From: Flavihumibacter solisilvae
GTDB lineage: Bacteria > Bacteroidota > Bacteroidia > Chitinophagales > Chitinophagaceae
Direction of reading: 5' to 3'
Assembly (NCBI RefSeq): GCF_000814475.1
Contig: NZ_JSVC01000001.1
Span: 372,001 to 436,000, forward strand
DNA length: 64,000 nt
Both the position numbers and the translations under genes were made by a program. Below the pieces are notes generated by a model. The model was given only the letters and a program-made list of their open reading frames with translations. It was not told the origin of the DNA and did not search any database. Positions 21,271 through 22,050 of this stretch are shown here, piece after piece (position 1 is the first letter of the stretch; each line of letters starts with the position of its first letter).

Positions 21271-21413
21271 AACATTGCTGTTTTGTTCCCCGGGATGGGA
21301 AAAAAAAGTGGGCCAGAAGAGAAACGTTAAAATTTAGGGAGGCAAATAGTTAAAAAAATACTTCGGGGAAAATAATGAGGGGAAAAGAATCACCTAAACG
21401 CCTGCAGGGAAGT

Positions 21414-21442
21414 AAAAAAGCCCCTCCAATTAAGGAAGGGCT
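21414..21442 (-). terminator. Second terminator-like hairpin, minus strand
   Basis: On the minus strand AGCCCTTCC and GGAGGGGCT pair (one G-U pair) around TTAATT, followed by TTTTTT. It lies 115 bases beyond the first terminator and could stop read-through or end a separate small transcript from 21443-21529. Confidence 0.6.
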
Positions 21443-21495
21443 ACCTAACAGCTGTAAACACACACATGAGAAAAAGGCGTGCGTACCGATTTTGT

Positions 21496-21514
21496 ATTGC
21501 AGCATCACTGCAAT
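21496..21514 (-). other. Small perfect hairpin
   Basis: ATTGCAG and CTGCAAT pair around a five-base loop, giving a seven-base stem. It lies between the two minus-strand terminators in a region without a gene. No function is assigned. Confidence 0.35.
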
Positions 21515-21529
21515 CGTTGAGGGTAGTAC

Positions 21530-21559
21530 AAAAAAATCCCGCTTAGGGGGCGGGATTTT
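21530..21559 (-). terminator. Intrinsic terminator of the tRNA-like RNA unit
   Basis: On the minus strand AAAATCCCGC (21559-21550) and GCGGGATTTT (21542-21533) pair around a seven-base loop, and the T-run continues to 21530. It begins six bases after the 3' end of the first tRNA-like RNA, the right distance to end its transcript. Confidence 0.8.
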
Positions 21560-21565
21560 AAAATG

Positions 21566-21758
21566 CTGTAGGGGGAGGAGTCGAACCTCCACGGGGCAGT
21601 TAGCCGTAGTACAAAGATTAGTGGTCAACCCTGGTCGGCTTTATCCCGGTACCGGTTACCCGGAACAGAGATACCAGTCGGCTCTATGCTACGTTTATCC
21701 TGGATTCCCCACCCCCGAGACGAGAGGGCATGTCTGCCAAAGATTTCATCACCCCACA
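21566..21758 (-). tRNA. tRNA-like RNA A with 110-base variable-region insertion, apparent anticodon GUC
   Basis: 193 bases, minus strand. Parts in order: acceptor TGTGGGG pairing with CCCTACA; T8 G9; three-base D stem ATG/CAT with GG in the loop (TTTGGCAGA); anticodon arm CCCTC / TCGTCTC / GGGGG, so positions 34-36 read GTC; a variable stem GGGG/CCCC (21707-21710 with 21593-21596) enclosing about 110 bases; T arm GGAGG / TTCGACT / CCTCC; discriminator G. No CCA is encoded. The D arm resembles class II tRNAs, while anticodon and G73 resemble tRNA-Asp. Position 33 is C rather than the near-universal U. The insert contains nested inverted repeats (for example CCGG GTAA CCGG). Could be a charged non-decoding RNA, a structured regulator or a decayed tRNA. 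Confidence 0.7.
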
Positions 21759-21787
21759 GTATAAAGAACAAAAAAGCAATACGGTCG

Positions 21788-21906
21788 CTGTAGGAGGAGG
21801 ATTCGAACCTCCACGGGGTCGTTAGCTATGCCGGAGCACAATTTGTCCAAGTTTCCCCACCCCCGAGACAAGAGGGCATGTCTGCCGAAAGTTTCATCAT
21901 CCCACA
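21788..21906 (-). tRNA. tRNA-like RNA B with 36-base variable-region insertion, apparent anticodon GUC
   Basis: 119 bases, minus strand, 29 bases upstream of RNA A. Acceptor TGTGGGA pairs with TCCTACA; compared with RNA A the seventh pair has changed from G-C to A-U on both sides, which supports a real stem. D stem ATG/CAT, D loop with CGG, anticodon arm CCCTC / TTGTCTC / GGGGG (GTC, with normal U33), variable stem GGGG/CCCC (21855-21858 with 21815-21818), T arm GGAGG / TTCGAAT / CCTCC, discriminator G, no CCA. The variable insert shares only a GCTAAC segment near its 3' side with RNA A. Confidence 0.72.
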
Positions 21907-21933
21907 GTATTAATCTCAAGAACTTTGATAAAG

Positions 21934-21941
21934 CAAATATA
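21934..21941 (-). promoter_or_regulatory. Likely -7 box for the tRNA-like RNAs
   Basis: On the minus strand TATATTTG followed by C matches the Bacteroidota TAnnTTTG box and lies 27 bases before the 5' end of RNA B. A start near 21927 would give a leader of about 20 bases. No clear -33 TTTG at the ideal distance. Confidence 0.5.
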
Positions 21942-21989
21942 CAACGATTCGTTCAATTGTTGCATATAATTCAATCAGAATAAAGAAAT

Positions 21990-22040
21990 AATAGAAAATG
22001 TCTAAAATATATTATATTGCAATAGAAAATATCAAAATTA
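21990..22040 (+). repeat. Direct repeat upstream of Lrp-family gene, possible operator
   Basis: Two A-rich copies (21990-22009 and 22021-22040), both beginning AATAGAAAAT, sit 31 bases apart, about three helical turns. They lie directly before the start of the Lrp-family regulator, which suits autoregulation by an oligomeric Lrp-type protein. Inferred. Confidence 0.5.
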
Positions 22041-22050
22041 GACTTGCAAA

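Follow-up and report, generated by a model that had tools for sequence, protein, structure and literature searches.

A conserved family of tRNA-like RNAs in Bacteroidota combines an aspartate-type anticodon loop with a putative role in GatCAB-dependent asparagine formation

To our knowledge, tRNA-dependent asparagine synthesis has so far always been found on the decoding tRNA-Asn. A dedicated tRNA working outside of translation is the staphylococcal tRNA-Gly used for cell-wall bridges, and E. coli AsnC acts as an asparagine sensor that controls the divergent gene asnA. According to the passages considered here from a survey of 547 genera, asparagine is synthesized on tRNA-Asn by AspRS together with GatCAB in Bdellovibrio bacteriovorus, Deinococcus radiodurans and Thermus thermophilus, with the decoding tRNA-Asn (GUU) as carrier and with the need for a non-discriminating AspRS (PMC4206432). 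The same passages give no settled reason for the retention of GatCAB in some bacteria that possess GlnRS as well as AsnRS, consider that the enzyme could be a vestige in some of these bacteria, and place the Bacteroidetes among the groups without an asparagine synthetase (PMC4206432).

The window analyzed here, a stretch of 64,000 nucleotides from Flavihumibacter solisilvae, contains two tandem tRNA-like RNAs (Table 1). The original prediction had described two minus-strand elements of 193 and 119 bases with a complete tRNA skeleton, and both are indeed present at these lengths, each with acceptor, D, anticodon and T arms. In both copies the 7-bp acceptor stem is followed by a D stem of three pairs with GG in its loop, an anticodon stem of five pairs, an extended variable arm, which measures 44 to 118 nt in the window, and a T arm containing TTCGANT. 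At the acceptor pair 7:66 the short copy has A-U and the long copy G-C, a difference that had been described as compensatory; among 57 aligned homologues, the pair is GC in 46, AU in 7 and GU in 4. The absence of U33 from the long copy had not been mentioned in the prediction. The tandem pair sits between an upstream element, TATATTTG, which we take to be a Bacteroidota-type -7-like element, and a terminator-like hairpin. In addition, GTTCTT, presumably a boxA-like sequence, occurs twice. Both signals recur in the 60 nt that precede the first element: of 190 distinct places, TAnnTTTG is found there at 96 (8.8 in base shuffles) and GTTCTT at 94 (3.3 in base shuffles). By analogy, the boxA-like GTTCTT looks as if the transcript used an rRNA-like antitermination.

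Table 1. Features of the tRNA-like RNA locus and its divergent neighbor (positions refer to the window).
Feature	Position	Strand	Remarks
Short tRNA-like RNA	21788..21906	-	U1 at 21906, G73 at 21788, 119 nt; C74 encoded at 21787
Long tRNA-like RNA	21566..21758	-	U1 at 21758, G73 at 21566, 193 nt; C74 encoded at 21565
Short-copy anticodon loop UUGUCUC	21865..21871	-	GUC at 21869-21867
Long-copy anticodon loop UCGUCUC	21717..21723	-	GUC at 21721-21719; position 33 = C
Short-copy variable arm	21815..21858	-	GGACAAA / CUAAC internal loop; stems covary
Long-copy variable arm	21593..21710	-	GGAUAAA / CUAAC, 11-bp helix, GGGUUGACCAC motif
Presumed -7-like promoter element TATATTTG	21934..21941	-	TAnnTTTG recurs upstream of homologues
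Presumed boxA-like GTTCTT upstream of short copy	21918..21923	-	from sequence
Second GTTCTT, in spacer separating short and long copies	21764..21769	-	from sequence
Intrinsic-terminator-like hairpin 3′ of long copy	21533..21559	-	from sequence
AsnC-type regulator gene, 155 aa	22051..22518	+	divergent, 144 bp from short-copy U1

The elements possess the cloverleaf of a canonical tRNA, with a 7-bp acceptor stem and D, anticodon and T arms; they are not recognized by standard tRNA models, and U33 is not conserved in them. ARAGORN returned no tRNA gene over the window, Rfam 15 at the gathering threshold returned no tRNA and no Y RNA over the window and no family at the elements, and a permissive Rfam search (E up to 10) of positions 21400-22050 yielded no tRNA and, among its 12 matches, no Y RNA. 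The folding energies of the single sequences (z-scores of -1.72 and -1.33) are uninformative as evidence. The elements share with tmRNA and the bacterial Y RNAs (YrlA) that these are stable RNAs with tRNA-like parts, but they differ from them in anticodon, neighboring gene and link to GatCAB, and they have no Rfam match. A tmRNA or split tmRNA was rejected, as a separate, normal tmRNA is encoded on another contig of the genome (C21; RF00023, 135.4 bits); the other RF00023 match (C67) stayed below the cut-off and none lies at the elements. Neither do the elements replace a missing host tRNA, as 36 distinct normal tRNA sequences are present in the genome, including Asp(GUC), Asn, Gln, five Leu and three Ser.

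The body of both elements is nearest to the host tRNA-Leu, namely to the GAG isoacceptor for the short copy and to UAG, followed by GAG, for the long copy. The resemblance to these tRNAs concerns the D, anticodon-stem and T regions, the 3-bp D stem and the class II layout. The elements differ from them by GUC, by U1:A72, by G73 where the tRNAs carry A73, and by the length of the variable arm, 44 to 118 nt in the window. The mixed anatomy that had been noted from the sequence was thereby confirmed, with a tRNA-Leu-like body and with anticodon, C38 and G73 of the Asp type. Among the 36 host tRNA sequences found by ARAGORN, only tRNA-Asn and tRNA-Gln start with U1. As 35 of them end in C after the discriminator (Trp alone ends in CCA), the encoded C74 of the elements is a local habit which they have in common with the host tRNAs.

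A DNA similarity search detected the RNA in 37 of 59 related genomes, the own genome included. A pattern scan of named genomes yielded at least 118 stretches, with record titles which, among the matches listed, were mostly from Chitinophagaceae, other Chitinophagales or Bacteroidetes. As the pattern required part of the anticodon loop, these loci were not used for judging loop conservation. A first alignment comprised 57 members of less than 87% identity, which were also the source of model R1. With a hand-drawn structure (cloverleaf plus variable-arm helices), 96.2% of the cells of this alignment were paired (87.2% in column shuffles), both-side changes occurred at 18 of 38 pairs (13.7 in shuffles), and 206 cells carried double changes (58.0 in shuffles). 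The D and anticodon stems say little in this set, since they are nearly invariant there. In a second alignment of 40 short, mostly distant members, which was built without the model, all six helices exhibited both-side changes (four acceptor, two D, two anticodon, three plus three variable-arm and one T pair); the weakest pairs were one in the anticodon stem (unpaired in 11 of 40) and one in the inner variable stem (unpaired in 12 of 40).

Model R1, which gave the long copy 176.5 bits in the window's own genome, was run on 296 genomes of one Bacteroidota class and gave matches in 108 of them at E ≤ 0.001. Since eight of nine inspected loci of 36-58 bits turned out to be ordinary tRNA-Leu genes (the ninth, L293, is a degenerate member), a cut-off of our own of at least 64 bits was adopted. 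At this cut-off, below which divergent members may fall, 54 of the 296 genomes from 19 families were RNA-positive, and false negatives are possible among the RNA-negative genomes. Covarying homologues in related genomes had been named as a test by the original prediction, which survived it. As judged by these comparisons, the two elements are members of a real, conserved and widespread tRNA-like RNA family.

The core of the variable arm, a covarying stem with a GGAYAAA / CUAAC internal loop, is found in short and long forms alike. The long forms additionally contain an 11-bp covarying helix (87.3% paired), and the motif GGRTYGACCA is present in 153 of 226 distinct elements, or in 21 of the 66 that came from the distant search. 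Tandem pairs with differing variable arms, as in the window, occur in many Chitinophagaceae (L120, L144, L084, L123, L138 and others), and the variable-arm sequences of the two tandem forms suggest different jobs. The family also exhibits several deviating forms. Genome G241 harbors three 111-nt tandem copies with spacers of about 19 nt (L251:3001-3371) and a fourth, divergent copy elsewhere (L246). At four loci (L073:2449-2660, L130:533-712, L136:223-413 and L238:3001-3134) a small hairpin-like insert precedes the GG in the D loop, a feature that we know of in no tRNA. The element L240:3001-3148 of genome G167, in which no GlnRS was found, has mostly lost its anticodon loop and kept its other arms. 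The degenerate relative in genome G112 (L293, 237-314, minus strand) measures only 78 nt, with U1:A72 and G73 kept, the variable arm nearly gone and an AUC-like loop, and is called tRNA-Asp(atc) by ARAGORN; the congeneric genome G224 contains a normal member of 117 nt.

Across the 40 short, mostly distant members U1:A72, G2:C71, G73, C74, U35 and C36 are invariant, G34 is present in 37, C38 in 38 and U33 in 29, position 37 varies, and position 10 is A in 22, G in 14 and U in 4. U1:A72 is likewise found in all 57 members of the first alignment. A set of 110 distinct elements was collected by similarity search and model, both of which contain the loop without requiring its letters; here, GUC is present in 106, C38 in 107 and U33 in 71. 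The identity elements of bacterial tRNA-Asp are, in the part of the literature used here, G73, G10, G34, U35, C36 and C38, with G1-C72 and G2-C71 being strictly conserved (PMC9976931). The RNA thus carries G73, G34, U35, C36 and C38 of an AspRS substrate, and it lacks G1-C72 and a conserved G10. As these two features are missing, a poor charging by AspRS appears possible. On the other hand, U1-A72 is the pair recognized by bacterial GatCAB, as stated in the passages of the survey introduced above (PMC4206432), and GatCAB, scored by its gatB subunit, is encoded in the same genomes as the RNA. In terms of its conserved positions, the RNA combines the Asp anticodon loop and discriminator with the first acceptor pair of tRNA-Asn and tRNA-Gln.

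The gene divergent from the RNA unit in the window encodes a protein that scored 165.2 bits with the NCBIfam model for AsnC, 65.3 for LrpA and 51.8 for Lrp, and whose best PDB match is E. coli AsnC (2cg4, E = 1e-33); the AsnC equivalog cut-off of 227 bits is not reached. Clustering of open reading frames at 199 of 210 loci (11 duplicates were left out) identified an AsnC/Lrp-type gene divergent from the RNA at 155 loci, at a median distance of 148 bp (range 48-262). By tblastn, an AsnC-type gene was located within 400 bp of the RNA at 175 of the 210 loci, or at 158 of 191 after removal of repeated places. Of the 177 distinct places for which 600 nt or more of upstream sequence were available, 153 had a divergent AsnC-type gene; the remaining 24 are mostly from families f18 and f23 and part of f35, or are second copies. 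In distant families, the surroundings of the RNA contain no other gene family that comes close to the AsnC-type gene in recurrence. The arrangement resembles the AsnC-asnA pair of E. coli in that an AsnC homologue is divergent from a proposed asparagine-making unit, but the partner is an RNA gene instead of asnA and the protein scores below the equivalog cut-off. The divergent gene encodes an AsnC-type, asparagine-sensor-like regulator, which by homology may bind asparagine and control the RNA unit.

Genomes without GlnRS normally depend on GatCAB. All 54 RNA-positive genomes contain gatB over the cut-off, as do 166 of the 242 RNA-negative genomes (with eight matches of E 1e-24 to 5e-5 dropped and one of 5e-78 kept). 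Because of the general need for GatCAB in the absence of GlnRS, the test was restricted to those genomes in which GlnRS was matched at E ≤ 1e-100; there were 116 of them, 115 over the cut-off. Within this group, gatB is present in 35 of 35 RNA-positive and 8 of 81 RNA-negative genomes; the eight weak matches all fall among the latter, and the count would be 16 of 81 had they not been scored as absent. Fisher's exact test gives 2.6e-22, a value overstated by kinship, since related genomes are not independent. At the level of families, RNA and gatB are both present versus both absent in 6 and 2 genomes of f1, 5 and 1 of f22, and 9 and 3 of f58; five more families contain only genomes with both, 25 have neither, and f32 has gatB without the RNA in eight of eight. 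AsnRS was over the cut-off in all 35 RNA-positive genomes with GlnRS and in 79 of 80 genomes tested overall, the exception (G121) being without GlnRS. As AsnRS and GlnRS occur in all 35 genomes, GatCAB is needed there for neither Gln-tRNA nor Asn-tRNA. Among the genomes without GlnRS and without the RNA, 158 of 161 contain gatB, which is needed there for Gln-tRNA.

GlnRS and gatB co-occur in 43 of the 296 genomes, 35 with the RNA and 8 from family f32 with a divergent gatB. In one of these eight, G069, an open reading frame of 1106 aa (L299:1304-4624, plus strand) fuses GatB (16-475) to a complete AspRS (518-1105). A GatA-like gene lies next to it, and a second, separate AspRS is encoded in the genome. 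At the same site the fused AspRS reads RDHG and the other RDKG. We take His at this site (the position of Leu30 in E. coli) as a mark of a non-discriminating AspRS, which is no proof of its discrimination behavior. The NCBIfam family of bifunctional AspRS-GatC proteins matched the fusion far below its cut-off. The gatB E-values of the other seven f32 genomes are similarly low (1e-103 to 1e-107); the fusion itself was seen in G069. Such a fusion of GatB to a second AspRS offers a different way of making a GatCAB substrate. A non-discriminating AspRS in RNA-positive genomes was considered and, by this mark, rejected, as the His mark is absent in all of 20 AspRS fragments, 12 of them from RNA-positive genomes.

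The E. coli-type AsnB was over the cut-off in none of the 54 RNA-positive and in 4 of 26 RNA-negative genomes tested, all four without gatB, and AsnA in 3 of 54 and 2 of 26, respectively, with a third RNA-negative genome just below. Generic AsnB-like proteins were over the cut-off in 263 of the 296 genomes, by a model which also scores exopolysaccharide-type amidotransferases (two proteins checked). A general replacement of asparagine synthetases by the RNA is thus unsupported, AsnB-like proteins being common and AsnA rare on both sides. The window's own genome encodes an AsnB-like protein (619-aa ORF, best E 1.9e-140), so that the RNA need not be its only asparagine source. Five of the 54 RNA-positive genomes (G314, G059, G202, G332 and G338) have neither AsnA nor an AsnB-like match better than 1e-14, with TIGR01536 matches only of E 1e-12 to 1e-14, and possess AsnRS. 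From this gene content, the RNA route could be the sole supplier of asparagine in a few genomes and an additional one in most. A genome of the window's own family, G129, lacks the RNA, gatB and AsnA, has only weak AsnB-like matches and contains AsnRS and GlnRS; judging by these genes it is likely an asparagine auxotroph.

From the fold, the identity elements, the AsnC-type neighbor and the tie to GatCAB in the genome profiles, which emerge directly from the comparisons, we infer the following course. The RNA would have a promoter of its own, and its transcript would, like that of a tRNA, be trimmed and receive a CCA end. AspRS would aspartylate it via GUC, C38 and G73, and GatCAB, reading U1:A72, would amidate Asp-RNA to Asn-RNA. 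Having lost U33 in many members and bearing a bulky variable arm, the RNA may be kept off the ribosome, as asparagine at Asp codons would be harmful. The asparagine would then be released or handed on, and the AsnC-type protein would sense it and set the level of the RNA. We know of no enzyme releasing asparagine from such an RNA. Such a dedicated-RNA route to asparagine would be possible even where AspRS rejects tRNA-Asn. Formation of Asp and then Asn on the RNA appears quite probable, whereas for an asparagine supply under AsnC control the balance tips only somewhat in its favor. Taken together, we consider it likely that AspRS aspartylates, and GatCAB then amidates, a dedicated and probably non-decoding RNA under control of AsnC, with asparagine released or handed on. 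Among the uses that had been proposed earlier, an Asp acceptor for a special context or the feeding of a non-ribosomal process fits best, while a decoy or regulator now ranks lower; the connection to GatCAB, AsnC and asparagine was absent from that proposal.

It is less probable, though worth considering, that asparagine formed on the RNA is not supplied to the pool but donated to a specific non-ribosomal acceptor such as cell wall, lipid or peptide. The identity elements and the GatCAB association fit this equally, and as most RNA-positive genomes have an AsnB-like protein, pool supply is not obviously needed. However, the near-constant partner is an AsnC-type regulator and not a transferase gene, and no other gene recurs similarly. 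Rather unlikely appears a sensor or decoy which binds AspRS and/or GatCAB, or reports Asp or Asn by its charging, and acts on AsnC or the enzymes without being a carrier. The AsnC-type neighbor would suit such a role, and tRNA-like synthetase decoys in mRNAs are mentioned in the consulted part of the tRNA-Asp literature (PMC9976931). Yet a sensor or decoy would give no need to keep GatCAB in genomes with GlnRS and AsnRS, nor would it require the intact acceptor end, including G73 and C74, that all 40 members have. Very improbable is an unusual decoding tRNA-Asp, or a tRNA inserting Asn at Asp codons: the GUC anticodon, G73 and U33 in 71 of 110 elements would fit, but the genome encodes a normal tRNA-Asp(GUC), many members including the window's long copy have lost U33, variable arms can exceed 100 nt, and U1:A72 would make the RNA a GatCAB substrate and thereby lead to misincorporation of Asn. 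Hardly credible, finally, is a structured RNA that borrowed the tRNA fold for processing or stability and is never charged, to which the variable arm's own conserved motifs (among them GGRTYGACCA) might point, but which offers no explanation for the fixed GUC-N-C loop, for U1:A72 and G73, or for the association with GatCAB.

Amidation of a dedicated RNA, the reading preferred here, shares with the tRNA-Asn route the joint presence of AsnRS, GlnRS and GatCAB and, by our reconstruction, the conversion of Asp to Asn on a U1-A72 RNA (described for that route in the survey passages; PMC4206432). The family differs from that route in that the RNA is distinct from tRNA-Asn and has GUC, a long variable domain, a variable position 33 and an AsnC-type neighbor. 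With the staphylococcal tRNA-Gly it would have in common a tRNA-derived RNA and a reaction outside of translation; that tRNA, however, carries another amino acid and has no GatCAB step, no extra conserved domain and no AsnC. A dedicated amidation carrier RNA with its own conserved domain fits neither the tRNA-Asn route nor the cell-wall tRNAs, although its parts (tRNA fold, AspRS, GatCAB, AsnC) are all of known kinds. Among the papers that searches of the open-licence PMC literature listed, none described this RNA in its title or the beginning of its abstract, and the family is apparently undescribed.

A more comprehensive picture, which we put forward tentatively and rate at slightly less than an even call, would be that across one Bacteroidota class asparagine is made on a dedicated, non-decoding RNA derived from tRNA-Leu. 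A discriminating AspRS would charge it via the Asp anticodon, GatCAB would amidate it via the Asn/Gln acceptor pair, the variable-arm domain would act in release or transfer, and an asparagine sensor would be in control, while another lineage would use the fusion of GatB with a second AspRS. We know of no example of amino-acid synthesis on a purpose-built, non-decoding RNA. The present data add a large unannotated RNA family, and, if the proposed route is true, amino-acid synthesis on such an RNA would be a use of RNA without known precedent.
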